Shown: positions 4,772 through 19,797 of the stretch, in pieces | Layout of the letters: each line of letters opens with the position of its first letter | Numbering within the stretch: the stretch's first letter is position 1 | Origin: a candidate division TA06 bacterium SM23_40 | GTDB lineage: Bacteria; LJUI01; SM1-40 | Direction: 5' to 3' | Length of the DNA stretch: 25,143 bases | Assembly (NCBI GenBank): GCA_001303705.1 | Contig: LJUI01000019.1 | Coordinates: 1-25,143, forward strand | Position numbers and translations under genes: made by a program | Notes under the pieces: generated by a model | The model's input: only the letters and a program-made list of their open reading frames with translations | Database searches by the model: none | What the model was told of the DNA's origin: nothing

Positions 4772-4935
4772 TGGTCGCTGCCCCGGGAATCTGGCTGCGG
4801 AGGTGCGTTGTCTGACTGAGGGACGCTATCTGCCCGAGGGGCGCCATCTGCCTGTGGTCCTGGCTGCCTGACGAGCGCCAGCTACTCGATGAGTGTCAGC
4901 TCGCAAAGGGCCTTATCCGCCCGGGAAGTGCCAAC
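4772..4935. repeat. Degenerate 18-bp tandem repeats between the Cys-rich gene and the ABC ATPase gene (array D)
   Basis: Nine or so diverged units fall into an 18-nt period, clearest at 4811-4864 (TCTGACTGAGGGACGCTA, TCTGCCCGAGGGGCGCCA, TCTGCCTGTGGTCCTGGC) and traceable to 4935. The core TCTGCCnnnGGGG and the period match the array at 7481-7732. Stops interrupt the frames, so it does not look coding. It fills most of the 236-nt gap inside the presumed operon. Confidence 0.6.
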
Positions 4936-4968: not shown

Positions 4969-5904
4969 ATGGATGAGATGATCAGAGTCCGTGGGCTCAC
5001 CCGACACTACGGTGAACTCGTCGCGGTGGACCACATCGACTTCGAGGTACACCGGGGAGAGATCTTCGGCTTCCTCGGCCCCAATGGCGCGGGGAAGACG
5101 ACTACGATCAGAATGCTCACCGGAGTCATTGACCCTACGGAAGGTTCTGCCTCAATCGACGGGCATGACATACGGACCAAGGCCATCGCAGCCCGGCGCC
5201 ACCTGGGCATCCTCCCTGAGGATGCCAACGTCTATGTGGATCTGACCGTGTGGCAGAATGTAATGCTAATGGGGGAACTGCTTGGCGCGGGACGCAGGGA
5301 ACGGCGACTGCGGGGCGAAGAGCTCCTGGAGACGTTCGGCCTCCAAGACCGCAGAGCCCAAAAGGGACGCGCGCTCTCCAAGGGGTTGCGGCAGCGGTTG
5401 ATGGTCTGCATGGCCCTGATCGGGGATCCGGACCTCCTCTTCCTCGACGAGCCCACGAGCGGCCTCGACGTGGCCAGCGCTCGCCTCATCCGTCAGATCG
5501 TGGCAGAACGAAACCGAAGGGGGTTGACGGTCTTCCTCACCACTCACAACATGGGGGAGGCGGAAGAACTCTGCGACCGGGTTGCGATCATCGACCACGG
5601 CAAGATCGCTGCGATCGATACGACCGAGGGTCTCATGCGGGTTGCGAGGTCGCGCCAGTCTGTCGACGTCGAGTTCGCCGGCGAGTCACCTCCCGCAGCC
5701 GAACTGGAGGCTATCCCCGATGTGACCGCTGTGAAGCGGGATGCCTCCAGATATGTGTTGTACTCGGAGCAACCAGGGCAGGTCGCCCAGCAGATCGCTA
5801 CCCTCGCCACAGAGCGAGGATATGATATCGCCGCTATCTCGACTCGTAAGCCCTCTCTCGAGGACGTCTATCTCTTCCTCACTGAGTCGAACGGATCTCC
5901 CTAA
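4969..5904 (+). CDS. ABC transporter ATP-binding protein, ABC-2 type exporter
   Basis: 311 aa, one nucleotide-binding domain. Walker A is GPNGAGKT (37-44), the signature loop is LSKGLRQR (136-143), Walker B is LLFLDEP with D160 and E161, and the switch His is H193 (TTHN). The Q-loop position reads LPEDANVY, with Glu in place of Gln, a variant seen in this subfamily. Residues 220-311 form the C-terminal extension typical of ABC-2 exporter ATPases (ending RKPSLEDVYLFLTES). The partner permease starts 13 nt after the stop. Either ATG 4969 or ATG 4978 could be used; neither has a clear ribosome site. The substrate is unknown. Position in the ArsR-type operon hints at export of a metal-related or toxic compound, but the 236-nt repeat-filled gap leaves co-transcription unproven. 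Confidence 0.9.
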   Translation: MDEMIRVRGLTRHYGELVAVDHIDFEVHRGEIFGFLGPNGAGKTTTIRMLTGVIDPTEGSASIDGHDIRTKAIAARRHLGILPEDANVYVDLTVWQNVMLMGELLGAGRRERRLRGEELLETFGLQDRRAQKGRALSKGLRQRLMVCMALIGDPDLLFLDEPTSGLDVASARLIRQIVAERNRRGLTVFLTTHNMGEAEELCDRVAIIDHGKIAAIDTTEGLMRVARSRQSVDVEFAGESPPAAELEAIPDVTAVKRDASRYVLYSEQPGQVAQQIATLATERGYDIAAISTRKPSLEDVYLFLTESNGSP

Positions 5905-5917
5905 CGGAGGTGTGGTC

Positions 5918-6688
5918 GTGAGTACGGCGGAGAGCGGATCAGCCCTCCTCAGCCAGCAGGCCCGTGGCGCAGTGACGGTCGCAAAGAAGAATGCCCTCAT
6001 CTACTACTTCAAGCCGCCGGTGCTGATCTTCGGCGTTCTATTCCCGGTCTTCTTCTTTCTCGCTTTCAGCCTCGGCCGCAGCATGCCGGCAGATCGCATC
6101 GTGCCGGCCATGGTGGCAATGGCCCTCTGGTTCACTGCCTCCGCCGTCGGCCCGCTCGTCACTCCGTGGGAACGTACGTCTCGGACATACGAACGCCTCA
6201 TCTCCACCCCCATAGCCATCCAGGCGATCGTCGCCGGCGACGTCCTGAGTGGCTTTGCCTTCGGGATCAGCTTCTCACTTGTGCCACTCCTGCTGGGACT
6301 GGCCTTCACCGACACAGCAGTGGCCTCCGCAACATCCCTTGTCTGCGGAATCGTACTGGGTGCGCTGGCGTTTTCATCACTCGGCGTACTCCTCGCCGCA
6401 CCGCCCGTGCACGGCCCCTCATACATTATGATGCTCTCCAACCTCGTCCGACTCCCCCTCCTGTTCGTGAGCGGGATATTCGTGCCGATTGCCGAGATGC
6501 CGGCCTGGGCACGATGGCTCGCACCGATCTCCCCGCTCTCGTACTGTGCCGACTGTATCAGGCGCGGCTTCGGGGAGACCGGCTATTTCCCCTTCTGGCT
6601 GAACCCGCTCATGCTTGTCCTCTTCTCCGCTCTCTTCTCATGGGCTGCGTGTCGCTTTCACATTCGCTCACGCGCCCACGGATTGTAG
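5918..6688 (+). CDS. ABC-2 type transporter permease
   Basis: About 256 aa with six hydrophobic segments. The first follows KKNALIYYFKPP, and a YISPLSY-like element (LAPISPLSYCADCIRRGF) lies before the last one, both usual for ABC-2 permeases. The frame is open further upstream, but GTG 5918 is chosen because CGGAGG (5905-5910) sits 7 nt before it and the preceding codons overlap the ATPase gene. It would form a homodimeric channel driven by the ATPase encoded just upstream. Its last 21 nt overlap the convergent DUF72 gene. Confidence 0.85.
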   Translation: MSTAESGSALLSQQARGAVTVAKKNALIYYFKPPVLIFGVLFPVFFFLAFSLGRSMPADRIVPAMVAMALWFTASAVGPLVTPWERTSRTYERLISTPIAIQAIVAGDVLSGFAFGISFSLVPLLLGLAFTDTAVASATSLVCGIVLGALAFSSLGVLLAAPPVHGPSYIMMLSNLVRLPLLFVSGIFVPIAEMPAWARWLAPISPLSYCADCIRRGFGETGYFPFWLNPLMLVLFSALFSWAACRFHIRSRAHGL

Positions 6689-7462
6689 CCCGTCATCGAG
6701 CCCCAGGAGCGCTGCGATCTCACGTGCGTTCTTCACGGCATAGGCGTGAAGGTCGTTATTGAAGTACACGTACACATCGCGCCCGTTGTCGAGCTGTCCA
6801 TTGATCCACGTAGCCCAGGGGCGGAGCTGCTGGCGCGTATAGCAGCCGGAGTGTACACGGGGGCGGCCATGAAACCGGACATAGATGAAGTCTGCCGTCT
6901 CCACCCGCGGTACTTCGAGTCCCTCTCGATCAGGAAGGCAGAGGGCGACGCCAGCCTCTTCGAGGCGTGAGTAGACCTTGTCGTCGAACCATGTGGCGTG
7001 TCGGAACTCGAGAGTGAAGCGCATCCCCTCGGCGCCGATATCACGACACGTCTCCCCGATGAGCGCCAAGAAGTCACCCAACAGGGCATCGTCCCGATGC
7101 ACTCCAGGAGGGAGCTGGATGAGGATCGGCCCGAGATGCTCATCGAGCCGCCGGGCTCGGACAAGAAATGACGCGACGTCTTGCTCCACGTTCACCAGCC
7201 GCTTGCGGTGCGTGACCATCCGCCACATCTTGACCGCGTAGATGAAGTCCTCGGGAGCTTTCGCCGCCCAGGAGTCGAATGTCTTCTCGGGAAACAGCCG
7301 ATAGAAGGTCGCGTTCAGCTCTACCGTCGAGAATGTCTTCGCGAAGAACGCGAACCAATCCTTCTTCGCCACATCAGGGGCGTAGAAAGGGCCGCGCCAG
7401 TGATCGTAGGACCACCCTGACGTGCCCACATACGGCTTCCCCCGGGAACCTCGAGGCGTCAC
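6668..7462 (-). CDS. DUF72 (YecE-like) family protein
   Basis: 264 aa, full length for the family. DUF72 landmarks are present: YVGTSGWSYDHWRGPFYAP (N-terminal), FFAKTFSTVELNATFYRLF, FIYAVKMWRMVTHRKRL, LGPILIQLPPG, FTLEFRHATWF and the C-terminal FIYVRFHGR with VYVYFNNDLHAYAVKNA. The fold is a TIM barrel; the biochemical function of the family is not established. The start is GTG at 7462 with GGAGG 9 nt upstream. The 3' end overlaps the convergent ABC permease gene by 21 nt. An 18-bp repeat array, possibly coding, begins 19 nt upstream of the start. Confidence 0.9.
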   Translation of the reverse strand: MTPRGSRGKPYVGTSGWSYDHWRGPFYAPDVAKKDWFAFFAKTFSTVELNATFYRLFPEKTFDSWAAKAPEDFIYAVKMWRMVTHRKRLVNVEQDVASFLVRARRLDEHLGPILIQLPPGVHRDDALLGDFLALIGETCRDIGAEGMRFTLEFRHATWFDDKVYSRLEEAGVALCLPDREGLEVPRVETADFIYVRFHGRPRVHSGCYTRQQLRPWATWINGQLDNGRDVYVYFNNDLHAYAVKNAREIAALLGLDDGLQSVGA

Positions 7463-7480
7463 CGCTCTCCACCTCCTCTC

Positions 7481-7732
7481 TCTGCCTTCTAGATTCTGTG
7501 TGCCGTGGGGATCCTCTCTGCCACGTGGATTCTATCTGCCGCGGGGATCCTGTCTGCCGTAGGGTCTCTGTCTGCCCCTCGGATCCTGTCTGAGGTAAGA
7601 ATCTTGTCTGCCGTGGGGTCTCTATCTGCCCCGCGGCTCCTGTCCGCCGCGGGGTCTCTGTCTGACCCGGAAGTCCTGTCTGACCCGGAAGTCCTGTCTG
7701 CCATAGGGAATCTGTCTATCACAGTGATCCTG
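7481..7732. repeat. 18-bp tandem array, 14 units in perfect register (array A)
   Basis: Fourteen consecutive 18-nt units run from 7481 to 7732 with no insertion or deletion. The consensus is TCTGCCGTGGGGATCCTG. Units 11 and 12 (7661-7696) are identical; the others differ at several positions. The first half (TCTGCC) and the end (CCTG) are most conserved. On the minus strand it lies immediately before the DUF72 ribosome site. There are no unique spacers, so this is not a CRISPR array. Confidence 0.9.
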
Positions 7733-7782
7733 CGTGGTACGGCGATCAAGCGCCCGCACGCCTCCCCCGGCATATCTCTCAT
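7489..7782 (-). CDS. Possible hexapeptide-repeat small protein encoded across array A
   Basis: A 97-codon frame from ATG 7782 to TAG 7489 translates the 18-bp array into about 13 copies of a hydrophilic hexapeptide near A-D-R-(I/D)-P-(T/A), for example ADRIPAADRIHVAERIP. GAGG sits 7 nt before the ATG, and the stop lies 26 nt before the DUF72 start in the same orientation. The strict 3n register of 14 units fits selection on a reading frame, unlike the 17-bp and 21-23 bp arrays elsewhere in the window. Against it, the opposite strand is also open (ILSAVG-type repeats), no promoter is evident and I know no homologue. It would be a disordered, charged, cytosolic protein of unknown function. Confidence 0.3.
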   Translation of the reverse strand: MRDMPGEACGRLIAVPRRITVIDRFPMADRTSGSDRTSGSDRDPAADRSRGADRDPTADKILTSDRIRGADRDPTADRIPAADRIHVAERIPTAHRI

Positions 7783-7811
7783 TGACGATCCTCGAGTAGT
7801 GCGTGTATGAT
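7782..7811 (+). promoter_or_regulatory. Predicted sigma70 promoter for the MFS gene
   Basis: TTGACG (7782-7787), an 18-nt spacer and TATGAT (7806-7811). The start site would be near 7818, making a leader of about 370 nt that contains the whole 21-23 bp array. No gene lies between this promoter and the MFS start at 8186. Confidence 0.55.
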
Positions 7812-7860
7812 CGATCTAATTCCGACCGCCGAGTTCGACGAAACGGGAGCAGGTGGCCCT

Positions 7861-8099
7861 TTCAACGGGAGCGTGTAGCCCCTCCAACAGGAGCGTATGA
7901 CCCCTTCAACAGAAGCGTGCGGCCCTTTCAACAGAAGCGTGTGGCCCCGTTCAACACGAGCGTGCGGCCCTTCAACGGAAGCGTACGGCCCTTCAACGGA
8001 GGCGTGCGGCCCTTCAACAGGAGCGTGCGGCCCTTCAACAGGAGCCCATCACTCCTTCAACGGGGAGGTGTCACCCGTTCACCAGGACCGCCCACCCTG
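7861..8099. repeat. 21-23 bp tandem array in the MFS leader (array B)
   Basis: Eleven units begin TTCAAC (or TCCAAC/TTCACC) at 7861, 7883, 7905, 7927, 7950, 7971, 7992, 8013, 8034, 8056 and 8078. The core is TTCAACAGGAGCGTGCGG followed by CCC. The four central units (7950-8033) are exactly 21 nt; outer units are 22-23 nt and more diverged. Because length varies by 1-2 nt, no reading frame is kept across the array. Several units carry AGGAG or GGGAG, which resembles a ribosome site, followed one base later by GTG. Confidence 0.9.
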
Positions 8100-8185
8100 A
8101 GAAGAGAGGGACAGGCACTCAGTCTCGCAACGTCGCCCGACCTGCCCTCATCCTGACATGAGAGGACATCAGATCCGAGGGTGCT

Positions 8186-9418
8186 ATGCTCTTCAGGTTC
8201 TCTCTGTACGGATTCCTCAAGAACCAGCGATACTTCGAACCATTCCTCATCCTCGCATTCAGAGCGAAGGGACTGAGCTTCTTCCAGATCGGCATACTCA
8301 TCGCCTTCCGCGAAGTGTGCATCAATCTCTTCGAGGTGCCGAGCGGGGCGGTCGCGGACGTGTGCGGACGGCGGCGATCAATGATCATCTCATTCTCCGC
8401 CTACATCATGTCATTCAGTGTCTTCGCGCTCGCCACGGGCTGGTGGTTGCTCTTCCCCGCCATGCTGCTCTTCGCTCTGGGGGAAGCCTTCCGCACGGGC
8501 ACCCATAAGGCGATGATCTTCGACTGGCTCAGCCAGGAAGGCCGATCCGAAGAGAGAACGAGAGTCTATGGATTCACGCGTTCGTGGTCGAAGATCGGAT
8601 CCGCGGCATCTGTTATCATCGCCGCTGCGCTCGTCTTCATCAGCGGTAACTACCAGTACGTCTTCTGGCTCTCGATCCCCCCCTACCTTCTCAATATCAT
8701 CAACTTCCTCGGGTATCCGCGGAGCCTCGATTGCAGGTCGCCGGAGTCACCATCCGTACCGCGGGTAGCCCGTCTACTCTGGCGTGCTGTACGGGACACG
8801 GCACGGAGACCAGTCCTTCGCGGACTCATCCTTGAGTCGATGCTCTTCGAGGGCACATTCAAGGCGACGAAGGACTACATTCAGCCGATCCTCAAGCAGA
8901 CCGCCCTGGCGCTCCCGCTCCTCCTCGCCCTGTCGGCTGACAGGAGAACGGCGATCCTCGTCGGCATCGTCTTCTTCACACTCCACCTCTTCGAGAGCGC
9001 CGCCTCCCGCCGCTCATACCTCCTTGCGGAACGGACCGGGGGCGAGCTTCAGGCCAACCGGGTCATCTGGATCGTTGCGCTCCTCGCCTACGCGTTCATG
9101 GCAGCCGCACTCTGGCGGGACGCGATCGGCGCTGCATTGCTGATCTATGTCGGTCTGTACGTCTCGCAGAACTTCTGGCGCCCCATACTCATCAGCCGCT
9201 TCAGTTACCACGCCGAAGAGGAATCGATGGCGACGGTTCTGTCGATAGAATCGCAGGCGAAGACGCTGGCGACTATGATCATCGCCCCGACGCTCGGTCT
9301 GGCAGTCGATCACTGGGGATTCTGGCCCGTGGGGCTTATCGGGTGCGCCGCCGCCGTGGCAGGCACCTATGTGAATACGAGGGCGCGTTCCCAGGCCCCG
9401 CAAGGAGGTCACGACTGA
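8186..9418 (+). CDS. MFS-type membrane transporter
   Basis: 410 aa, with many hydrophobic segments consistent with a 12-helix major facilitator. The N-terminal half has the MFS pattern FFQIGILIAFREVCINLFEVPSGAVADVCGRRRSM, where GAVADVCGRRRS is the loop 2-3 signature motif. FALGEAFRTGTHKAMIFDWL matches a sub-group of uncharacterised MFS proteins. The substrate cannot be inferred. GAGGGTG lies just before the ATG. A promoter about 370 nt upstream and an 11-unit tandem array make up its leader. The 3' end faces the FTR gene across a 33-nt convergent gap. Confidence 0.85.
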   Translation: MLFRFSLYGFLKNQRYFEPFLILAFRAKGLSFFQIGILIAFREVCINLFEVPSGAVADVCGRRRSMIISFSAYIMSFSVFALATGWWLLFPAMLLFALGEAFRTGTHKAMIFDWLSQEGRSEERTRVYGFTRSWSKIGSAASVIIAAALVFISGNYQYVFWLSIPPYLLNIINFLGYPRSLDCRSPESPSVPRVARLLWRAVRDTARRPVLRGLILESMLFEGTFKATKDYIQPILKQTALALPLLLALSADRRTAILVGIVFFTLHLFESAASRRSYLLAERTGGELQANRVIWIVALLAYAFMAAALWRDAIGAALLIYVGLYVSQNFWRPILISRFSYHAEEESMATVLSIESQAKTLATMIIAPTLGLAVDHWGFWPVGLIGCAAAVAGTYVNTRARSQAPQGGHD

Positions 9419-9451
9419 GGCCGGGCCGCCTGGGGGACTGAGGTCGCGCCC

Positions 9452-9961
9452 CTAGAGGAACCGCTCGAACCGCTCCTTCTTCGCCTTGCATACTGGACAG
9501 ATCTCGGGGGGGCCATCACGCGCGCAGAGGTACCCGCAGACGCGGCATCGCCACACGGGCAGGGAGAGAGATGAGACGGCCACGGACGGCGCGCCCCCTT
9601 CTCGCTTCTGCCGCTCCTCCGCTGACGGTCGCCGCTCCGGTATCGAACCGACAGCTTTCTTCCCTTCGAGGACATCCTGTGAGACATAGAGGGCGCAGTA
9701 GCATGAACCATGCTCGGTCAGGTCCGCATCCCGGTAATCACACGGACATATGATATCGAGATCATCGTCTTTCACCCCGGAAGCCAACCTGCAGGGACAC
9801 GCCCAATACCCGTACCTCTTCTCATTGATGAGCAAGCTCCTGACCAGATCCTTGGCGAACTCCTCATCCGGATTGAGATGATACCCGGAGGCCTCCGCCT
9901 CCTTGTCCAGTCTCCCATAGAGGGCCTGGATCTCTTTCTGCTCGACATCGATTTTCTTCAT
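9452..9961 (-). CDS. ftrB: Ferredoxin:thioredoxin reductase catalytic subunit fused to a rubredoxin-like domain
   Basis: 169 aa. Residues 1-105 are the FTR catalytic chain, with all six cysteines in three C-x-C pairs: C55/C57, C72/C74 and C87/C89. These hold the [4Fe-4S] cluster and the redox disulfide. After a charged linker (106-133) comes a short rubrerythrin-type rubredoxin domain ([22 protein letters not shown]) with C139, C142, C155 and C158 as iron ligands. The enzyme passes electrons from ferredoxin to a thioredoxin- or glutaredoxin-like protein. The rubredoxin tail could let it accept or donate single electrons. No variable (FTRv) subunit gene is nearby, as in methanogen-type enzymes. 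Its ATG overlaps the stop of the CGWC glutaredoxin-like gene (ATGA), so that protein is its probable partner. Confidence 0.9.
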
Positions 9962-10239
9962 ATGCCGATCGCCTCCCGAATCCGCGCTTCATCGAACCCG
10001 ACAACGCTCTTCTCGTCATTGATCACCAATGTGGGGAACGAGGTCCTGGGGCTCCACCGCCTCATCTCCTTCTCCGCTTCCGTCTTCTCCTTGCCCTTCA
10101 GGAGGTCAACATCGATGTATTCGTACGCCACGCCCAGGTTCTGTAGCAGGCGTTTCGTCTTCCTGCACCATCCACAGGTGCTCAGAGCAAAGAGGAAGAT
10201 GTGCCCTCTGTCCTTACCCTTAACATGCGTCGCCTTCAT
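9958..10239 (-). CDS. Glutaredoxin-like protein with CGWC active site
   Basis: 93 aa with the glutaredoxin/NrdH layout: beta strand HIFLFALS, active site TCGWC (C22 and C25), [18 protein letters not shown], the cis-Pro segment SFPTLVI, and [13 protein letters not shown] at the end. CGWC with a Grx-like body is common in anaerobes that use FTR-type reductases. It probably shuttles electrons from the FTR encoded next to disulfides in target proteins. The ribosome site GGGAGG lies 8 nt before the ATG. It is 3 nt downstream of the nitroreductase gene and overlaps ftrB by 4 nt, so the three are surely co-transcribed. Confidence 0.88.
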
Positions 10240-10242
10240 GTA

Positions 10243-10803
10243 CTATGCCTCCCTGTGCCTGTTCATGTGAGCAAACTGCTCGATCGGCATGCGCTCCGGC
10301 CTGTTCTTCTCCCACTCGATCTGCTTGTCAGAGAGCACGGGGCTTATCTCCTCCGCATGCTTGCCCACTATGACGAGCGTGATGAGCCTCATCTCCTCTG
10401 GTATCCCGAGAATCTCCTTGGCCTTGGCCTCATCGAATCCGGCGATGGGATGCGCCACAAGCCCCAGCTCAGTGGCCCGGAGGATGATGAACGCTGTAGC
10501 CATACCTGTATCGAACAGATAGTACACTCGGCCTTTCAGGTCGCAGTCCAGATCTCTCCGGGTGTGCACCGCTATGATGAGCGACGCCTGATACGCCCAT
10601 TCATTGCCTTTCGACAGGGCAGTGCGAAGTTGTCTCAGCACCGCCTCCTCATATGCGAAGACAAACCTCCAGGGCTGATTATTGAAGCAGGAGGGCGCCA
10701 GTTGGGCGTTCCCCGCCAGGTCTCGCACGCGCTCCTCGTCGATCTCCACGTACTCCAGGGAGCGGTACGCCCTCCGTTCCCGTATCGCTTGCTGTACGTC
10801 CAT
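10243..10803 (-). CDS. Nitroreductase-family FMN oxidoreductase
   Basis: 186 aa from ATG 10803, a usual size. It begins MDVQQAIRERRAYRSLEYVE, the phosphate-binding RRSxR region, followed by LAPSCFNNQPWRFVF, the FMN-contacting motif, and GLVAHPIAGFDEAKAKEILGIPE with RLITLVIVGK near the end. Such proteins reduce nitro compounds, flavins or other electrophiles with NAD(P)H. The frame extends to GTG 10812, but that GTG lies inside the GGGAGGTG ribosome site; ATG 10803 is spaced correctly (8 nt from GGAGG). It is 21 nt after the DUF1122-like gene and 3 nt before the glutaredoxin-like gene. The physiological substrate is unknown. Confidence 0.88.
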   Translation of the reverse strand: MDVQQAIRERRAYRSLEYVEIDEERVRDLAGNAQLAPSCFNNQPWRFVFAYEEAVLRQLRTALSKGNEWAYQASLIIAVHTRRDLDCDLKGRVYYLFDTGMATAFIILRATELGLVAHPIAGFDEAKAKEILGIPEEMRLITLVIVGKHAEEISPVLSDKQIEWEKNRPERMPIEQFAHMNRHREA

Positions 10804-10824
10804 ACATTTCACCTCCCGTTCCGT

Positions 10825-11511
10825 CTATCCCAAGCTCGCGCCCGTCTTCACCACCCCATCTATCTTCTCCAAAACGGATCTACTCCTCTCTGCCGCTCTC
10901 GCCAGCCATCTCTCATATTCGTCACCCGAATCTCCCGATGCATCCCCTACTTTCTCAAGATATGCTGTCACCTCATCCCGAATACCACGCACGTGGCGCT
11001 CCCGTCTCGTCTCATCGAGCGGCTTCTCTCCCTGAAGCTTCATCCCCCCCTCGCTTCCCCCTTCCGGGAAGTACCAGTCCTTGAACCATGTGAATCCAAG
11101 TTCAAACAGCTTGGAGCCAAGACGAGTTATAGCAGGGGGAACCCCGTACCGCAGGCCGTACAAGGTCTCTCTGTCGGCCTGATACTCGACGTAGATCTTC
11201 CCTCCCGGACCGAGATCCCTCGAAAACAACTCCAACAGCCTGTCCTCAAAGATCGAACCGAAATATTCGATTCTTGTCCCCAGATCTATCTGTGGACGAA
11301 TACCGGAAATCTCTACCCACGGCCGATAGTACGGCTCCCTGCCGTAGTAGACTTTGACGTGCAGAAGCCGATCTTCGTGTGCGGCTTTCTTTCCGTACAC
11401 AACCAGATTGGCCTCTTCACTGAACCTCCCGGCCGTGATCTCTTTTGCATAGAGGGTAGTCCCGTCGACCTCAATCCCCCTATTCAGGTGTTGAACGTCC
11501 TCTCTGAGCAT
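10825..11511 (-). CDS. Conserved protein resembling DUF1122
   Basis: 228 aa, soluble, no signal peptide. The middle contains SRDLGPGGKIYVEYQADRE, LRYGVPPAITRLGSKLFELGFTWFKDWYFPEGGSEGGMKLQGEKPLDE, a strongly patterned block that I recall from the DUF1122 family of archaeal and bacterial proteins of unknown function; I could not check this. The N-terminal half (YGREPYYRPWVEISG) is mixed alpha/beta. The last 60 residues are charged and helical. It sits in the redox island 21 nt before the nitroreductase gene and is probably first in a four-gene unit with nitroreductase, glutaredoxin-like and FTR genes. The start has only a weak ribosome site (GAGCCGAG). Confidence 0.65.
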   Translation of the reverse strand: MLREDVQHLNRGIEVDGTTLYAKEITAGRFSEEANLVVYGKKAAHEDRLLHVKVYYGREPYYRPWVEISGIRPQIDLGTRIEYFGSIFEDRLLELFSRDLGPGGKIYVEYQADRETLYGLRYGVPPAITRLGSKLFELGFTWFKDWYFPEGGSEGGMKLQGEKPLDETRRERHVRGIRDEVTAYLEKVGDASGDSGDEYERWLARAAERSRSVLEKIDGVVKTGASLG

Positions 11512-11880
11512 CGCTCGGCTCTAATGCTGGCAGGTCCTGGTAGTTCTCTCGGCCACTGACCATTTCCAAATCTCGGCCTCGACATCTGTCACGAACGAGA
11601 CTTCTGGTGTCGTCTCCTACCACTGCACCGACCACCACTGCACCGACAACGGACTACGGCAGACTGCCCGGCACCTGACCCCTGAGAGCCCACACTGCAG
11701 CCTGGGCACAGTGCATCTCCCCGGACTGCCGACACTCCTCTGCATCCCGGTGCTTCATTTCCATCAGTAAGCTCGCATCTACCGTTCTTCGCATATACGA
11801 CATCGGCAGCCAGCCCCGCACATCGCTCTCAGATCTCCTGGCTCGTAGGACCCAAAGCCGGGATGGTCAGACACAATGGA
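11512..11880 (-). other. 369-nt gap between hrb and the DUF1122-like gene; short 15-bp repeat
   Basis: No gene is convincing here. CACTGCACCGACCAC (11621-11635) is repeated with one change at 11636-11650, and loosely similar C/G-rich stretches continue to about 11750. I found no clear promoter or terminator, so whether the DUF1122-like gene is transcribed with hrb is open. Confidence 0.4.
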
Positions 11881-12609
11881 CTAGCTCTGGGGCGAGAACT
11901 GATCTTTGGATGCTCCGCAGACGGGACAGACCCAGTCGTCCGGGACTTCTTCGAATGGAGTCCCCGGGGAGACGCCGTTCTCCGGATCCCCTTCCCCTGG
12001 GTCGTACACATAACCGCATACGTCGCACTCATACTTCACCATTGTCCCTGGCCTCCTTTCGGGAGCTGACGTTTGCACAGCAGACGTCGGCGCGGGTGTC
12101 CTGTATGTCGGGGCGTTCTTCGCAGTCTTCCCCTTCTTTGTCTCATGATAGTACGCGTATGTGAGCGGTCTGCCTTTCTTCAAGATTTCCCCGCTGACTA
12201 CTTCTCCCACGAATATCGTGTGGGTTCCTACGTCAGTCTGGTCGATGACACGTGCATCCATCACTGACAGCACGTTCTCGGTTACGAGAGGACACCCGGT
12301 CTCACCTGTCTGGTACACAGTCTGGGATAACTTATCCACATCCCTCCCCGACTTGAATCCAAACAGCCCTACGAACTTCATCGGCGTGGACTCTTCGAGA
12401 ATGGAGACCCCGAATACGCCACTCCGGGAGATATATTCATGTGTGAGGTTATCTTTGCTGATGCTGACAGCAATCCGCGGCGGCTCGGCGGTTACCTGGA
12501 TGACCGTGTTGGCTATCTGACCGTTGAGTTTGTCGTCGAGGCGAGAGGTGACAACATAGAGCCCATAACTCAAGTCGCACAGGCATTCGATGATCCCTTC
12601 ATCATTCAT
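11881..12609 (-). CDS. hrb: High-molecular-weight rubredoxin (flavin reductase domain fused to rubredoxin)
   Basis: About 242 aa. Residues 1-160 are a flavin-reductase-like FMN domain ([46 protein letters not shown]). A Pro/Thr/Ser-rich linker follows (165-190), then a rubredoxin ([17 protein letters not shown] and [15 protein letters not shown]) with four Cys iron ligands. In Moorella thermoacetica the homologue Hrb carries electrons from NADH to the FprA flavoprotein. Here fprA lies directly upstream and overlaps by 8 nt, so the same electron path is likely. ATG 12609 has AGGAG at 10 nt; GTG 12615 is an alternative that adds two residues. This is one of three rubredoxin domains in the island. 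Confidence 0.92.
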
Positions 12610-13813
12610 GGGCACAGATCTCCTCTAGCCGCTCAGCGACGAGCTTCCCCAGGGAACGGCATCGGGCCAGTGTCTCATCATCCGGCACGTACTTGATTTT
12701 GATGTCCTCACCGATCGGCTCGATCTTCATCTGGTTGAGTGCGTCCCTCACCTGCGCCACACCGTCACCGCTCCAGCCGTACGAACCGAACGCAGCCCCG
12801 ATCAGGTTCCGCGGCCTCAGGCCCTTGAGGTATGTAAGCACATCGGCCACCGTGGGGAAGATGTTGTTGTTGAGCGTTGGAGTGCCCACGATCAGGGCGC
12901 CGGCATCGAGTATCTCAGTCGCTACCTGGCTCCGATGGGTGGATGCGAGCGGCATCAGCCTGGCGCTCGCCCCACTCTCCACAAGTCCCTCCCCGATCGC
13001 CCGTGCCATCGCTGCTGTGCTCTGCCACATCGTGTCGTAGACGACCAGAGCCTTCAGCGTCGGCTTCTGAACACACCATCTCGCGTACCAGTCAACGATC
13101 CTCTGCACGTCCTTCCGCCAGATCGGCCCATGATCTGGCCCAATCGTCTCAATTGTCAAGCCGAGGCTATCTACCCTAGCAAGCAGTTTGGCGACAAGGG
13201 GGGAATAAGGCAGCAGGATGTTGGCGTAGTACTTCGCCGCTTCGTACTCTAGTACTCCGTCGTCGATCTCGTCCGCGAACCGCTCGCCCGATGCGAGGTG
13301 CATGCCAAAGGCATCCTGCGAAAAGAGGAGCTGATCTTCCCCCAGGTAGGTGAACATGCTGTCCGGCCAGTGGAGCATCCTGGTCTCGATGAATCTCAGC
13401 TCCACATTCCCGAGGCTGAGGCTCTCGCCATCCTTTACCGGGACGATCTCCCGATCCAGATGAAAATGCTCCAGAAGCGCCTTCGCGCCCATGACCGAGG
13501 CGAATACCTTCTCAGGCCTGACGATGTCCCATATATCGGCCAGGCATCCCGAGTGATCCATCTCAGAGTGGTTTGAGACGATGTACCTGATGTCGCGAGG
13601 ATCTATCACGGACGCGATGCGGGAGAGCAACTCATTCTTGAACGGTGCCTTGACCGTATCGATAAGCGTGACGGCATCTGCCATAACGAGGTAGGCATTG
13701 TAGCTCGATCCCCGGTCTGTGGAGTAGCCGTGGAAGTCGCGCACGGCCCAGTCGACCGCACCTACCCAGTACACATGTTCGCTCACGCGGACGGCCTTGA
13801 ACTGCTCGTTCAT
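12602..13813 (-). CDS. fprA: A-type flavoprotein (flavodiiron protein), O2/NO reductase
   Basis: 403 aa, complete. The metallo-beta-lactamase-like domain (1-250) carries the full diiron ligand set: H82-x-E84-x-D86 with H87 (NHSEMDHSG), H148 (MLHWPDSMF), D167 (FSQDAFG) and H228 (GPDHGP). The flavodoxin domain (253-400) has the FMN loop [14 protein letters not shown] and the later SYGWSGDG loop. FprA proteins reduce O2 to water or NO to N2O in the cytoplasm, using a rubredoxin donor. The hrb gene overlaps its end. The ATG has GGAGG 8 nt upstream, 21 nt after the ferritin-like gene. Confidence 0.95.
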
Positions 13814-13834
13814 GCCACGAACCTCCGCCGACAG

Positions 13835-14329
13835 CTAGTGTTTCGGAGACGATAGGTGCATGCTCAGGATTCCGATATGGCGCATCTCTTCCCTGATGAT
13901 CTCTTCGACCCACTCTCCTCCCAGTCTCTGGGGAACGACCTCCCTCATCCCCTGATAGAAGATGACAGAGTCCTTCTCGAGCTCGATGGCGATCCTCAGA
14001 ACATCATCCATCGCCTCTTTCCCGGACAGGAGGTCAGTCGGATCGGCGTCCACATCGAAGATTCGCTTGTCCGCGATCGCCCGAAGGTACAGGGGAACCT
14101 GACCTTCCGGATCCCATATGGTAGAAGCACGCTCATCCTCTGATAGTTGCGCCCTCATCGAAGCGAAGATCTTCTCATGCTGGTCCTCCATCGCTGCGAG
14201 GTCGAGCAATATCTTACGTCCCCCTGCATCGCCTGCACCCTCCGCCGCGCGGCGATAGAACTTCGCTCCGTTCCGTTCGATCTGTTCCGCCATCTCGAAG
14301 ATCTCGTCAGCATTGAAATCAACACTCAT
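13835..14329 (-). CDS. Ferritin-like (rubrerythrin-type) diiron four-helix protein without rubredoxin domain
   Basis: 164 aa, all helical. Diiron ligands appear in the expected spacing: E18 (EQIERNGAKFYRRAA), E48 with H51 (MEDQHEKIF), E118 (IELEKDSVIFYQGM) and E148 with H151 (REEMRHIGIL). The family covers rubrerythrin-like peroxidases and related diiron proteins; lack of a rubredoxin tail means an outside electron donor is needed. It sits between the HMA gene and fprA (21-nt gap) in the stress island. GGGAG precedes the ATG. Peroxide reduction is more likely than iron storage, but this is inference from the family. Confidence 0.8.
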   Translation of the reverse strand: MSVDFNADEIFEMAEQIERNGAKFYRRAAEGAGDAGGRKILLDLAAMEDQHEKIFASMRAQLSEDERASTIWDPEGQVPLYLRAIADKRIFDVDADPTDLLSGKEAMDDVLRIAIELEKDSVIFYQGMREVVPQRLGGEWVEEIIREEMRHIGILSMHLSSPKH

Positions 14330-14460
14330 GGTCTCTCTCCCTGTGTTATCTACAGCCAGATAGGGTGGGAATATGCCATGTTCACCGGACCATAACTCCC
14401 GACTCCCTCGTGCTCAGAATCGCCATGATCGATCCCTGGCTCCATCAGAATCGACCGAGG

Positions 14461-14658
14461 CTAGCCGATCTCATATCCTGCCCCTACTATGCGCTCCCTG
14501 ATTGTCTCCATTTGCACGGGCTTCAGTTCCTCGAACGTTGCCTCTCCTCTGGCCAGATCGACGTTCACGTTCTCGATACCCTCGACCTCGCTGAGAGCTT
14601 TCTTCACAGCCATGACGCAATGCTCGCACGTCATCCCCTTCACCTTGATGGTCCTCAT
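14461..14658 (-). CDS. Heavy-metal-associated (CopZ-like) domain protein
   Basis: 65 aa, a single HMA domain: MRTIKVKGMTCEHCVMAVKK with the metal-binding GMTCxxC motif (C11 and C14), then VEGIENVNVDLARGEATFEE and the C-terminal helix. It binds soft metals such as Cu(I) through the two cysteines and acts as a cytosolic chaperone in known cases. ATG 14658 is chosen because AAAGGAGACGGGG precedes it and the protein then starts exactly at the domain; the frame extends 69 nt further upstream without homology. No copper ATPase is present in the window, so its partner is unknown. Confidence 0.9.
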   Translation of the reverse strand: MRTIKVKGMTCEHCVMAVKKALSEVEGIENVNVDLARGEATFEELKPVQMETIRERIVGAGYEIG

Positions 14659-14740
14659 CGCCCCGTCTCCTTTCCTGTTACACGATATATGTGAAGTGTA
14701 CCCTGTCCTGCTCCCCCGCAGACCCATCTCTGCCGATCAG

Positions 14741-14983
14741 CTATGCGTCATTTCCTATGAGCCTGCGCTTCCAGAAGACCATGATACTGTCTTTGCCGAA
14801 GGCCATCTGGACCAGCTCCCACCCCACCCTTCCGCGGTCGTTCAGCAGATCACCGAGCACTTGCAGTTCATCGCCGGGCACTTGATCTGCGGAGCATTCG
14901 CCGGTCTCGGAACAGAAGTAGACCACTTTGCGGAATGTCTCCGCTGGATGTACGGTGATCTCGTACTCAAATCGTTCCACCAT
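14741..14983 (-). CDS. DUF4177-like small protein
   Basis: 80 aa. MVERFEYEITVHPAET opens a beta strand, and LLNDRGRVGWELVQMAFGKDSIMVFWKR is the characteristic (L/I)N..G.xGWELV...x..FWKR end of DUF4177-type proteins. Two cysteines (C24 and C30, in YFCSETGECSADQ) lie in the insert between the halves. Function is unknown. It is the first gene after a predicted internal promoter (15025-15052) and has GGGAG just before the ATG. It could be a minor member of the stress regulon. Confidence 0.75.
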   Translation of the reverse strand: MVERFEYEITVHPAETFRKVVYFCSETGECSADQVPGDELQVLGDLLNDRGRVGWELVQMAFGKDSIMVFWKRRLIGNDA

Positions 14984-15342
14984 GATCTCCCTTCTGTCGT
15001 TTGATATCAGCAGATGCTGCCAACTCTATACGCTCCCTCAGTCCTCTGTCAATATCGATCGAGCATATCCCGATTCCCCGCCCTGGCGGGCCCCGCCGCG
15101 TCTATCTCCGCGGCCTCGTGACTCCCTTCCGGAACACGCCCGCACCCCCCTGCCGGCACACATCGCCACTCCCCTGATATCTGCCGGCTGTTACCTGATC
15201 TCCGCGCGGGAGCGCGGGAGCGAAGACTGCCGCCGCACCGCCCTATCCCCGGGCGATGCCAGGATCGAGCGAGACGGCGGCCATGATACGGAAGCAGACT
15301 GCGCCCCCTGCGCAGCGCGCTCAGAACGTGTCGCTGGTCACC
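14984..15342 (-). other. 359-nt gap between ferritin and DUF4177 genes
   Basis: It holds the internal promoter at 15025-15052. The remainder (15053-15342) is very GC-rich, with loosely repeated CTGATATCTGCCGGC and CTGATCTCCGCGCGG at about 15175-15210. I see no gene and no clean terminator, although the ferritin transcript probably ends here. Confidence 0.4.
15025..15052 (-). promoter_or_regulatory. Internal sigma70-type promoter for DUF4177 and downstream genes
   Basis: On the minus strand TTGACA (15047-15052), a 16-nt spacer and TATAGA (15025-15030). The start site would be about 35 nt before the DUF4177 ATG. No copy of the perR dyad is visible here. Confidence 0.6.
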
Positions 15343-15858
15343 CTACTCAGCGGGGGCAGCAGGCATAGTGAAGACTCGCTGGCCCAGCTCCTGATCGACC
15401 ATGAACATACCGCCACCGGCATCACCGACAAGCTTCAGCTTCTGGACTATGTCGTTAGCCGACGCCTCCTCCTCCACCTGCTCGGAGACGAACCACTGGA
15501 GGAAGTTGTTCGTGGCGTGATCCTTTTGCTCTATTGCGAGGTCGACCAGGTGGTTGATCAAGCCGGTCACGGTCTGCTCATGCCGGTACGTGTGCTCGAA
15601 CGCGTCCAGTGGTGACTTCCATTCCGCCTGCGGCCCCTCTACCGGCCCGAGGGTGACTCGTCCCCCGCTCTCATTCACGTAGTCGTAGAACTTCATTGCA
15701 TGGACGAGCTCCTCCTGTGCCTGCACACGCATCCAGTTAGCGAAGCCAGCCAGATTGACAGACTGGAAGTAGGCTGACATCGACAGATAGAGGTACGAGG
15801 AGTAAAGCTCCGCGTTGAGCTGCTTGTTGAGTGCCTCCTGCATCTTTTTGCTCACCAT
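15343..15858 (-). CDS. ftn: Bacterial non-haem ferritin
   Basis: 171 aa, FtnA-type. Ferroxidase ligands are in place: E17 ([14 protein letters not shown]), E50 and H53 ([14 protein letters not shown]), E94 ([33 protein letters not shown]), and E127/E130 ([11 protein letters not shown]). Residues 36-44 (LAGFANWMR) fit the family. It forms a 24-subunit iron-storage shell in known members and removes Fe2+ that would feed Fenton chemistry. ATG 15858 is preferred: AAAGGAT lies about 7 nt upstream and the gap to the superoxide reductase gene is then 5 nt. The earlier in-frame ATG (15876) would overlap that gene. Confidence 0.93.
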
Positions 15859-15863
15859 GACAT

Positions 15864-16238
15864 CTATCCTTTCCATAGACCGTGGACGTTACAGTACTCT
15901 CTTGCAGTCACCTTATCCGCTTTGATGGCAAACGTTGCTTCGGGCGCGTCTCCGGGCTTCAGGAAATGCCGATATGCGTTTCTGTCGGCTATCAGCTGGA
16001 TCCACTCGATGTAGTGTTTCTCCTCCATCGGATGGGCAACGCTCCCCACCTTCACCATAACGCCGCTGGCGGTCTTCTCGATCACCGGAACATGCTTCTC
16101 CTTTGCGGCGTCGGTCGTGTTTTCCTTGAACAGAACCATCGGCTGGTCGCAGCAGACCAGCTCGCCCTGTCCTTCATGGAGAACTTCGACGATGTTCCCG
16201 CAGATTTCGCACTTGTAGATCTGGAGCCTCTCTGTCAC
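15864..16238 (-). CDS. dfx: Desulfoferrodoxin, two-centre superoxide reductase
   Basis: 124 aa. The N-terminal desulforedoxin centre has C10, C13, C29 and C30 ([19 protein letters not shown]). The catalytic Fe centre has H49, H69, H75, C116 and H119 ([33 protein letters not shown]), with the conserved E47-K48 beside the active site. It reduces superoxide to H2O2 without making O2, using rubredoxin-type donors. The H2O2 is then handled by rubrerythrin and Tpx from the same cluster. The start is GTG at 16238 with AAGGAGGAGG just upstream. Confidence 0.96.
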
Positions 16239-16312
16239 TTTCCTCCTCCTTCTGAGACGAGTAGAACGTCACTCGACCGACAACAGGCGGGAGGGTCAGC
16301 ATCCTCCGCCCA

Positions 16313-16828
16313 TCAGGTCAACTCCCTCACTGCATTCAGTACTGCCTCGTAGTCCGGCTCGTTCGTCACCTCCGGCACGAACTGGATGTAGCGAATGGTG
16401 CCCTCCCGATCGACCACGAAAATCGCACGCCCCAGCAATCTGAGATCCTTGATCAGAACGCCGAATGCAGTGCCGAATGAGGCATCACGGTAATCTGACA
16501 GCGTCACAACTCTTGTTACCCCTGCGGCGCCGCACCAGCGTTTCTGGGCAAACGGGAGGTCCATGCTGATGGTGAGAATCACAACATCCGATCCCAGACG
16601 GGCGGCCTCTTCATTGAACCGCCTCGTCTCCATATCACAGACGGCCGTGTCCAGAGACGCTACCGAAGATATGACACAGACTTTCCCGCGATAGGAAGAC
16701 CCCTTGACCGGAGCCATGTCGTTCGCGATCACCTCGAACTCAGGAGCACGGTCGCCGACCTTGACCTCATCGCCTACCAGGGTCACGGGCTTCCCTTTCA
16801 TCGTTATGAGTCCAGTTCTCTCGTTCAC
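16313..16828 (-). CDS. tpx: Atypical 2-Cys peroxiredoxin, thiol peroxidase
   Basis: 171 aa, standard Tpx length. NERTGLITMKGKPVTLVGDEVKVGDRAPEF is the family N-terminus. The peroxidatic cysteine is C64 in LDTAVCDMETRRFNEEA (Txx C motif with T61), and the resolving cysteine is C99 in KRWCGAAG. A further cysteine at 51 is not catalytic in the family. It reduces H2O2 and alkyl peroxides and is re-reduced by thioredoxin-like proteins, here possibly the FTR and glutaredoxin-like pair. The start is GTG 16828, fixed by homology; GAGGAT and GGAGG lie close upstream. Confidence 0.94.
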   Translation of the reverse strand: MNERTGLITMKGKPVTLVGDEVKVGDRAPEFEVIANDMAPVKGSSYRGKVCVISSVASLDTAVCDMETRRFNEEAARLGSDVVILTISMDLPFAQKRWCGAAGVTRVVTLSDYRDASFGTAFGVLIKDLRLLGRAIFVVDREGTIRYIQFVPEVTNEPDYEAVLNAVRELT

Positions 16829-16897
16829 GCCTCCATCCTCTCTGCGGATGTGATTCTACCATCGTAGGTGCTACTCTCTGGCCCTGTTTGCACCTCT

Positions 16898-17473
16898 CTA
16901 CCAGTTCTCACAGAGCAACTCGTAGTACGCCTGAGGGTGTGCGCAGGCGGGACATTCATTGGGAGCCTCCGGGCCCTCGTGCAGATACCCGCAGTTGATA
17001 CACCGCCACACCACCGGCTTGTCCTTCTTGAAGATCTTACAGGCCTCCACGTTGGCAAGAAGACCCAGATAGCGCCTCTCGTGCTGTTTCTCGGCCACGG
17101 CGATCGAGGTGAAGATGGCGGCGATCTCGTCGAAGCCTTCCGCCTCCGCCACCTTGGCAAACTCCGGATACATCTCTGCCCACTCGTAGTGCTCTCCGCC
17201 GGCCGCTCCCTTGAGGTTTTCCGCAGTCGTCCCTATGATTCCCGCGGGGAACGCGGCCCGAACCTCGACCTCGCCGCCTTTGAGCTCCTTGAACAGCCGC
17301 TTGGCGTGTTCCTTTTCCTGGTTGGCCGTCTCTTCGAAGATCTGCGCGATCTGGACGTATCCGTCTTTCTTTGCCTGGCTCGCGAAATAGGTATAGCGAT
17401 TCCTCGCCTGCGACTCACCGGCGAACGCCGTTAAGAGATTCTTCTCCGTCTTCGACCCCTTCAGCTGCATCAT
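16898..17473 (-). CDS. rbr: Rubrerythrin
   Basis: 191 aa. The diiron four-helix domain carries E20 ([15 protein letters not shown]), E53/H56 ([11 protein letters not shown]), E94/E97 region ([14 protein letters not shown]) and E128/H131 ([12 protein letters not shown]). The C-terminal rubredoxin has C158, C161, C174 and C177 ([30 protein letters not shown]). It is a cytosolic NADH-linked peroxidase in anaerobes. The ATG overlaps the perR stop (ATGA), so the two are translationally coupled. GGAGG lies 4 nt before this ATG and 7 nt before the next one at 17470. Confidence 0.96.
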
Positions 17474-17973
17474 CGTTCCTCCTCTGTGCCCGTGTCACGG
17501 GTCAGTTCGTGAGATTTCTGTTCCTCCGCGGCTTCCGTGGCGTCCAAGCCGCGGTGAGCATGTTGCCCTTTCTGTCTGCACTGTGGACACAAGCCAACGA
17601 ATTCCAACTTATACCCTACCACCTCGTACTCCGTCAACCCCTGAAGAACATCATCCACCGCCGCGATCGGCTCAATCTCCACATCATCCACGCGCCCGCA
17701 CCGGAGGCAGCGCACATGGTAGTGGTTCTCAAGGAACCCGTCAAACCGCCGTTGACCGCCCCCCTCCAGCTTCTGGATCATGCCGTGCCGGGACAGGAGC
17801 TCGAGGTTGCGGTACACAGTGCCCAGACTGATATGGGGCAGCCGCTGCCGGACCATCTCATACACCTCATCCGCTGTGGGGTGTGAATCTACCCGCCGCA
17901 GTTCTTCCAAGATGGCCCGCCGCTGCATCGTCATCCGTAGGTCTTCTCGTACCATGTGTAAGTCTTTGTTCAT
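17470..17973 (-). CDS. perR: Fur-family repressor, PerR type
   Basis: About 167 aa. The winged helix spans 10-80 ([47 protein letters not shown]). The structural zinc site is C89-x2-C92 and C129-x2-C132. The sensing site has H31, D78 (RRFDGF), H84 and H86 (ENHYHVRC). Asp rather than Glu at position 78 is the residue typical of peroxide-sensing PerR. The frame is open upstream to 18144, but ATG 17991 lies inside the dyad operator, so ATG 17973 is preferred. The last 30 residues ([22 protein letters not shown]) are a family-atypical charged tail. It leads the stress island, has its own strong promoter and is probably autoregulated. Confidence 0.88.
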
Positions 17974-17989
17974 CAATCTCTTATCTCCC

Positions 17990-18018
17990 ATAATGGTAAC
18001 AACAATCGTTACTATTAT
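17990..18018 (-). promoter_or_regulatory. 29-bp dyad operator in front of perR
   Basis: On the plus strand ATAATGGTAAC (17990-18000) and GTTACTATTAT (18008-18018) are inverted repeats with one mismatch in 11 and a 7-nt centre. It lies directly downstream of the -10, covering the start site, and is A/T-rich like PerR and Fur boxes, though the half-sites are not the Bacillus PerR consensus. Autorepression is the likely use. Confidence 0.75.
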
Positions 18019-18019
18019 C

Positions 18020-18048
18020 AATATACACGGCGAAGCCCACGATGTCAA
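18020..18048 (-). promoter_or_regulatory. Strong sigma70 promoter of the perR-rbr operon
   Basis: On the minus strand a perfect TTGACA (18043-18048), a 17-nt spacer and TATATT (18020-18025). The start site falls in the dyad operator, about 40 nt before the perR ATG. Confidence 0.85.
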
Positions 18049-18353
18049 GGACTTTTGTCGAGATTTTTCCAAGACCGTGCGCAAAATCCGGTGCGAATTT
18101 CCGGCATGTCCTGTCACAACATATTGAATGCTGGAAAGTTGCATAATAGACTTCGGAGATTAGCACGTTGAACGCACTGAAGGATTCTACTATGCGAAAG
18201 AAACGGTGTATCCTCTGCAGCGGCAGGACTTTGAGCAGGACCGATCGCAACAGGGTATCCAGGGCTCGCCTCCCCCAATCCGCTTAGAAGCCCGACCTAT
18301 CGACAGTTAATCGCTCCGGACCAACCTCTCGATCACCGCAGCCGAGAATCGAT
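18049..18353 (+). other. Spacer between the divergent perR and protease promoters; one doubtful 31-aa ORF
   Basis: There is no established gene. A 31-codon frame at 18192-18287 (MRKKRCILCSGRTLSRTDRN...) has AAGGA 7 nt before its ATG, a CxxC pair and a very basic composition. No good promoter is placed for it and I know no homologue. The rest shows nothing I can name. Confidence 0.3.
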
Positions 18354-18383
18354 TTGCCAGCCTGCCCTCCCCACCGATATATT
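18354..18383 (+). promoter_or_regulatory. Predicted sigma70 promoter for the protease gene
   Basis: TTGCCA (18354-18359), an 18-nt spacer and TATATT (18378-18383); both hexamers match consensus at 5 of 6. The start site would be near 18390, giving a leader of about 355 nt that contains the 17-bp array. Confidence 0.55.
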
Positions 18384-18449
18384 GTTGGCGCAGCACCCCG
18401 GGGCGGGCAGACCGAGCAACGCACGGGGGCCGACACCGCAGCTGCCCGG

Positions 18450-18677
18450 GTCTTGTGCGTGCCCAGGTCTTGTGCGTGCCCAGGTCCGACGTGCGCCCAG
18501 GCCCGACATAAGTGCAGGTTCTACGTGCGTGCGCGTCCTATGTTTGTGCGCGTCGGCGGATGCTATGTGTTTGCGGATCCTGCGCATCTGCGGATGCTAT
18601 GTGTGTGCGGATCCTGCGTGTGCGGGGATCCTGCGTGTATGTCCGTCCTGGGTGTATGTCCGTCCTGCGTGTGTGCA
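18450..18677. repeat. 17-bp tandem array in the protease leader (array C)
   Basis: Thirteen 17-nt units plus one 7-nt partial unit (18552-18558) run without other indels. The later units read GATCCTGCGTGTGTGCG or close to it; the first two (18450-18483) are identical copies of GTCTTGTGCGTGCCCAG. Units change gradually along the array, as in an old tandem expansion. The unit has no stop codon in any plus frame, which explains the long open frames here. The 17-nt length excludes a repeated peptide. There are no spacers, so it is not CRISPR. Confidence 0.88.
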
Positions 18678-18744
18678 GGTAGTGAGCGCGAATGCCAGTA
18701 TGGGGAGGGAGCCAGTCTATGCGAGAATGCAAAGAGACGGGGTT

Positions 18745-19797
18745 ATGGCAATGGAGCAAGATGTACAGCGTGCACTTAGACTGCTCGACGGAGCAGAATA
18801 TCGTGAAGTTGATGATAGACGGTGTGAGGTCATCCCCTCGGACACGTCCCATGCCGAACTTCTCGACGCCTATTCACGTGCAGTCATTGCAGTCGTTGGA
18901 ACAGTGGGACCGGCTGTTGTCAGCATCTCAGTCGGGAGAAAGTCGCGAGGAGATGGCCCAGAGCAAGCCGGGGCCGGCTCAGGGGTCATCATCGCGCCTG
19001 ATGGGTATATCATCACGAACAGCCACGTAGTAAACAAGGCAAAACGGCTGACGGCGACCCTCGCCGATGGCACGAGCCTGACTGTGACCCGCGTCGGTGC
19101 AGATCCTGCTACCGATCTGGCGGTCATCCGCGCCAATGCCTCGGGCCTGCCGTGCGCCACGCTGGGCGACTCCTCCCTGTTGACTCCAGGCCAACTGGTG
19201 ATTGCCATCGGCAACCCGTTTGGCTTCCAGTCGACTGTCTCGGCCGGTGTCGTGAGTGCACTTGGCCGGGCTCTGCGAAGTCTCGACGGACGCCTGATCG
19301 AAAACATCATCCAACATACCGCTCCCCTCAACCCCGGGAATTCCGGCGGTCCCCTCGTCGATTCGAGAGGACGGGTCGTCGGGATCAATACGGCCATCAT
19401 CATGATGGCCCAGGGAATCGGTTTCTCCATCCCCTCCGACACCGTCAAGTGGGTAGCCTCTCAGCTCCTGGCCCACGGCCGGGTGCGACGCGGTTTCCTC
19501 GGGATCGCTGCTCGGCAACGTCCCCTCGATCGCCGGCTGGTCCGGTTCTACCACCTCCCTCAGGAACGCGGGGTCGAGGTGCTCTCGGCAAATCAGGGGG
19601 ACCCGGCCGATCGGGCGGGCGTACGAGAGGGAGACATCATCGTCGCCATGGACGGCAAGACGGTGGCAAGCGTTGATGACCTCCACCGGCTCCTATCGGA
19701 GTGGCCCATCGGCGCCTCAGTGGCTCTCACAATCATCAGAGGAGTGGATCGAATCGAGATAGAGGTCTCGCCCACTGAAGCGGAGTCCTCCCATTAG
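18745..19797 (+). CDS. HtrA-like trypsin/PDZ serine protease, apparently cytosolic
   Basis: 350 aa from ATG 18745. The trypsin-like domain (about 40-245) has the full triad: H94 (TNSHVV), D124 (PATDLAVI) and S200 (NPGNSGGPL), plus GSGVIIAPDGYIITN and AIGNPFGFQSTVSAGVVS. One PDZ domain follows (about 255-345: LGIAARQ, VEVLSANQGDPADRAGVREGDIIVAMDGKTV). Unlike DegP/DegQ there is no signal peptide or membrane anchor. The N-terminus is MAMEQDVQRALRLLDG, then AELLDAYSRAVIAVVGTVGPAVVSI. The start is uncertain: the frame stays open upstream through the 17-bp array to 18382, and ATGs at 18700, 18727 and 18751 are alternatives, none with an ideal ribosome site. A role in protein quality control is likely. 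Confidence 0.88.
   Translation: MAMEQDVQRALRLLDGAEYREVDDRRCEVIPSDTSHAELLDAYSRAVIAVVGTVGPAVVSISVGRKSRGDGPEQAGAGSGVIIAPDGYIITNSHVVNKAKRLTATLADGTSLTVTRVGADPATDLAVIRANASGLPCATLGDSSLLTPGQLVIAIGNPFGFQSTVSAGVVSALGRALRSLDGRLIENIIQHTAPLNPGNSGGPLVDSRGRVVGINTAIIMMAQGIGFSIPSDTVKWVASQLLAHGRVRRGFLGIAARQRPLDRRLVRFYHLPQERGVEVLSANQGDPADRAGVREGDIIVAMDGKTVASVDDLHRLLSEWPIGASVALTIIRGVDRIEIEVSPTEAESSH

Follow-up and report, generated by a model that had tools for sequence, protein, structure and literature searches.

Tandem arrays and genes of the window

The window analyzed here, a stretch of 25,143 nucleotides, constitutes an entire contig (C78) from a draft genome of 2.88 Mb (189 contigs, ~90% complete). It holds four short-period tandem arrays, all of which lie between called genes, with no overlap with a called gene (Table 1). 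Copy-by-copy alignment together with TRF, run at permissive and strict settings, bore out a sequence-only reading in which four arrays had been placed near these positions, none of them interrupting a gene. The one array to shrink was that placed at 4772-4935, which was recovered only as a weak, borderline core of 4.5 copies in the gap between an ArsR-like gene and the ABC transporter gene; over the full claimed span, copies align only with five gap blocks and at low conservation. The 18-bp and 21-22-bp arrays occupy the single divergent gap between the DUF72 and MFS transporter genes, and the stretch 7400-8160 is without a second copy in the host genome. The exact stretch inside the 18-bp array is a late duplication. 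Copy alignment puts the copies of the window arrays at ~64-78% alike.

Table 1. Positions of the arrays, their neighboring genes and the dispersed 27-mer
Feature	Position	Strand	Detail
Weak degenerate 18-bp array	4800..4878	.	TRF permissive score 83, lag-18 identity 0.56
ABC transporter ATPase gene, after weak array	4969..5904	+	Pfam PF00005, E 6e-31
DUF72 gene, downstream neighbor of 18-bp array	6668..7462	-	Pfam PF01904, E 2e-64
18-bp array	7478..7729	.	14 copies of CTGTCTGCCGCGGGGATC, perfect register, without indel
Exact 2.4-copy stretch inside 18-bp array	7658..7700	.	100% match
21-22-bp array	7842..8090	.	~12 copies of GGCCCTTCAACAGGAGCGTGC, 7 gap blocks
MFS transporter gene, downstream neighbor of 21-bp array	8186..9418	+	Pfam PF07690, E 2e-19
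17-bp array, two blocks	18443..18677	.	>7 copies; blocks 18443-18486 and 18547-18676, 34-bp higher-order repeat
HtrA-like protease gene, after 17-bp array	18751..19797	+	trypsin-like and PDZ domains
27-mer example sites, outside window	L212:10429-10835, L143:5459-5874, L156:5802-5938, L199:15414-15644

The closest homologue of the MFS transporter (58%, in genome G039) has no array nearby. The open frame of the HtrA-like gene extends back across the 17-bp array that precedes it, and homology to named relatives starts only near 18724-18757. Between these two genes runs a minus-strand series of redox and oxidative-stress type (9452-17934), which includes a ferredoxin-thioredoxin-reductase-like protein with a rubredoxin-like domain (9452-9961), a Fur-family regulator (17470-17934) and, judged by translations alone, rubrerythrin-, ferritin-, desulfoferrodoxin- and flavodiiron-like proteins. 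Two adjacent and similar proteins (904-1989 and 2587-3726), probably secreted, carry recurring 'CWDGHYLW'-type stretches and matched no Pfam family above the cut-off.

Placement and density across the host genome

No compared genome is closer to the host than the same domain (best 16S match 82% among 386 genomes), so placement was tested by sampling the host genome itself in place of an ortholog comparison. The sample, of which the window was part, comprised 101 stretches totaling 1.28 Mb, or 44% of the genome. With filters of at least 70 bp, at least 2.8 copies and a period of 10-80, it yielded 85 permissive arrays, 54 of them at strict settings. A single Markov (dinucleotide-based) shuffle of 829 kb returned 1 array at the permissive threshold, compared to 59 in the real sequence. 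The arrays avoid genes: 25 of the 85 fall in coding DNA against 70 expected if they were uniformly spread, and 56 sit in a gap flanked by called genes on both sides; the calls come from an unvalidated custom caller, and some long gaps may hide genes. Outside the window, coding DNA at L003:4444-6815 also carries a large tandem repeat, its units being ~156 and 312 bp long.

Within gaps, placement follows gap length and favors neither start codons nor a gene orientation. By gap length, 41.5 arrays would be expected in co-directional, 9.9 in divergent and 4.6 in convergent gaps; the counts are 46, 6 and 4. The arrays of co-directional gaps are divided between those closer to the next start codon (22) and those closer to the previous stop codon (24). 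On the sense strand, promoter-like sites flank arrays on both sides: their density is 1.03 per kb upstream, 1.42 per kb from array to start codon and 0.22 per kb inside arrays. The arrays are not concentrated between promoter and start codon. The sequence-only reading had described, for two of the arrays, an order of predicted promoter, array and start codon. This order is present before the MFS and HtrA-like genes, where promoter-like sites at 7782-7811 and 18354-18383 lie upstream of the respective arrays, but not before the DUF72 gene, where the sole promoter-like match of the gap sits within the array, and it does not appear as a genome-wide bias. Leader-specific placement fails on the counts for convergent gaps, on the near-even division between start and stop codons and on the two-sided promoter-like sites. 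The same reading had proposed scoring a tandem-repeat scan against start codons, and what the 1.28 Mb returned is largely the scatter that it had named as speaking against its claim. With placement set by gap length, a small set of arrays would often look like those of the window.

Strict arrays reach 42 per Mb here, compared to 6.6 per Mb (a ratio of about six) in 1.21 Mb of comparison DNA pooled from coding and intergenic sequence of mixed lineages (18 genomes and 80 loci). When TRF is weighted more strictly and four or more copies are required, the densities become 18.8 per Mb here and 6.6 per Mb in the comparison DNA. Of 90-bp windows, ~4.0% of those in intergenic DNA but 0.35% of those in coding DNA exceed the 99.9% shuffle level of short-lag self-similarity. 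Lost mismatch repair was rejected as a cause because the host genome encodes two MutS-family proteins (open frames of 955 and 848 amino acids). Mismatch repair would in any case hardly act on loops the size of a minisatellite unit.

Units, copy history and folding

The units are mostly unrelated to one another. All-against-all comparison tied six arrays together through one dispersed repeat and joined one further pair; the others stood alone. Three of the window arrays had been read as related on shared motifs, a claim that did not survive its control: the only hit joined 4800-4878 and 7478-7717 at E 0.004, but the reversed-sequence control of the same pair scored better (E 1.9e-6), and 18547-18655 had no match to 7478-7717. 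The shortest fundamental period is 12 bp and the longest 74 bp; 32 of 56 lie between 14 and 23, in a distribution shaped by the array filters. The periods are spread over the residue classes modulo 3 (18, 15 and 23), so codon phase plays no part.

The dispersed repeat is a 27-mer, GGGGACGTNNNNRGGTTNNGAAGGTTA, with 110 copies in the host genome at up to two mismatches and none for the reversed pattern. In the sampled DNA, all 73 copies are intergenic, in 26 clusters and two subtypes, and often stand head to tail with inverted copies following 100-300 bp away. It is absent at up to one mismatch from 370 other genomes. The 27-mer resembles a REP-like element; a search for a partner transposase found none, and a Y1 transposase was rejected as its source, being represented by one below-cut-off fragment with no 27-mers beside it. 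A literature search for the 27-mer gave nothing relevant.

Variance between copies, column by column, fits a neutral tree of stepwise duplication in all 24 testable arrays, and no unit position is constrained. For the two main arrays of the window, the data reject a single simultaneous expansion (P below 0.0025 and 0.017). In the 18-mer, the CTGTCTGCC half is better conserved, yet within neutral expectation (P 0.22), and a conserved 9-bp core was rejected accordingly. Single-strand RNA folding is no stronger than that of unit-permuted controls (mean z ~0 on both strands), and Rfam gave no match within the window. Neither core nor structure thus exceeds neutral expectation.

Composition departs from this pattern. 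The sense-strand purine fraction is 0.559 in array units compared to 0.523 in other co-directional gap DNA, a difference of ~2.4 standard errors at array level, computed from the spread between arrays. Shine-Dalgarno-like tetramers are also commoner on the sense strand of array units than in array-free co-directional gaps of the 1.28-Mb sample; resampling P values overstate both excesses, since the copies of one array are not independent observations. These excesses may reflect transcription-linked slippage, or simply repetition that amplifies the asymmetry of transcribed gaps.

Origin and persistence of the arrays

We propose, with a probability of about 0.8, that the arrays are non-coding intergenic minisatellites that arose on the spot through tandem duplication, are tolerated between genes and are decaying. 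Each array would have started in place from a short sequence peculiar to it and would have grown through repeated tandem duplication, in steps and not in one burst; replication slippage or unequal exchange is the putative molecular step. Arrays would persist because extra intergenic DNA is tolerated in the host genome, presumably under selective neutrality, and would now be decaying through substitution and indels. They would share no signal, and neither promoters, start codons nor gene direction would fix where they lie. Tolerated expansion had been one of two suggestions in the sequence-only reading; the tolerance fits, but the zone is intergenic DNA in general and not leaders. Two observations count against minisatellites of this kind. 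Pure neutrality does not predict the sense-strand purine and Shine-Dalgarno-like excess, nor does it sit easily with about six times the comparison density in a genome with MutS proteins. A mutational process of the lineage's own, which keeps making arrays (mostly of 16-25-bp units) in transcribed intergenic DNA and favors purine-rich sense strands, is unlikely but the least so of the alternatives; such a process, for example transcription- or R-loop-linked slippage, would grow part of the intergenic DNA.

The second suggestion was a regulatory RNA or spacing element. As leaders, the arrays would act as repeated protein-binding sites, or as RNA repeats in 5' UTRs that tune the downstream gene, and it is true that a gene start follows three of the four arrays in the window, two of which have promoter-like sites upstream, and that their sense strands are enriched as described above. 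We nevertheless consider this distinctly improbable, given differing units and periods, folding at control level, the lack of a conserved core, placement that neither favors starts nor avoids convergent gaps, and promoter-like sites that flank arrays on both sides. Still further from likely is that the arrays encode short repeat proteins or extensions, for example hexapeptide repeats at 7489-7782 on the minus strand and heptapeptide repeats at 7803-8156 on the plus strand. Open frames do span the 18-bp and 21-bp arrays, but the gene caller rejected them and they have no Pfam match; the 17-bp array cannot hold a frame, the 21-bp array has several indels, and periods genome-wide ignore multiples of three. 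Just as remote is an origin as pieces of a dispersed mobile family, tandemized after insertion: the 27-mer shows that such a family exists here and forms six of the surveyed arrays, but the window arrays lie outside it and 7400-8160 is unique in the genome. The locally born minisatellite remains our preferred explanation.

Bacterial VNTR/MLVA loci also repeat units of minisatellite length in tandem and are often found between genes, as the arrays are. Copies here are, in contrast to such loci, strongly diverged, which suggests older and less mutable arrays. Subirana and Messeguer (2019; PMC6749651), who surveyed 142 archaea and 119 bacteria, found satellites to be few in most species, with some species rich in unique, unrelated and partly non-coding satellites, and ascribed them to local DNA-copying errors. 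Three of the window arrays (7478-7729, 7842-8090 and 18443-18677) reach the minimum used there, four copies of a 10-200-nt unit arranged head to tail, and stand outside protein-coding genes by gene calling, by a Pfam scan and by period residues modulo 3; the window arrays belong to this known prokaryotic kind of non-coding satellite or minisatellite, although with copies ~64-78% alike some might miss that paper's regularity threshold. The closest parallel is Methanobrevibacter ruminantium, with many short-unit arrays of unique, unrelated units across the genome, partly non-coding, although densities are not strictly comparable because the pipelines differ. Compared to those satellites, copies here are more decayed (~65-90% alike), nearly all the non-coding arrays lie between genes, and the host belongs to a bacterial lineage without a close relative among the compared genomes. 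Marine Beggiatoaceae, also environmental bacteria, likewise carry many intergenic direct repeats (PMC4679880), but there a common heptamer, TAACTGA, lies mostly just upstream of start codons, a placement that suggested regulation; the arrays here have neither a shared unit nor such placement.

Arrays near genes can therefore seem regulatory in a 25-kb window yet track gap length alone genome-wide. At about six times the comparison density, the host lineage is a usable case for the birth and decay of non-coding satellites in compact genomes.
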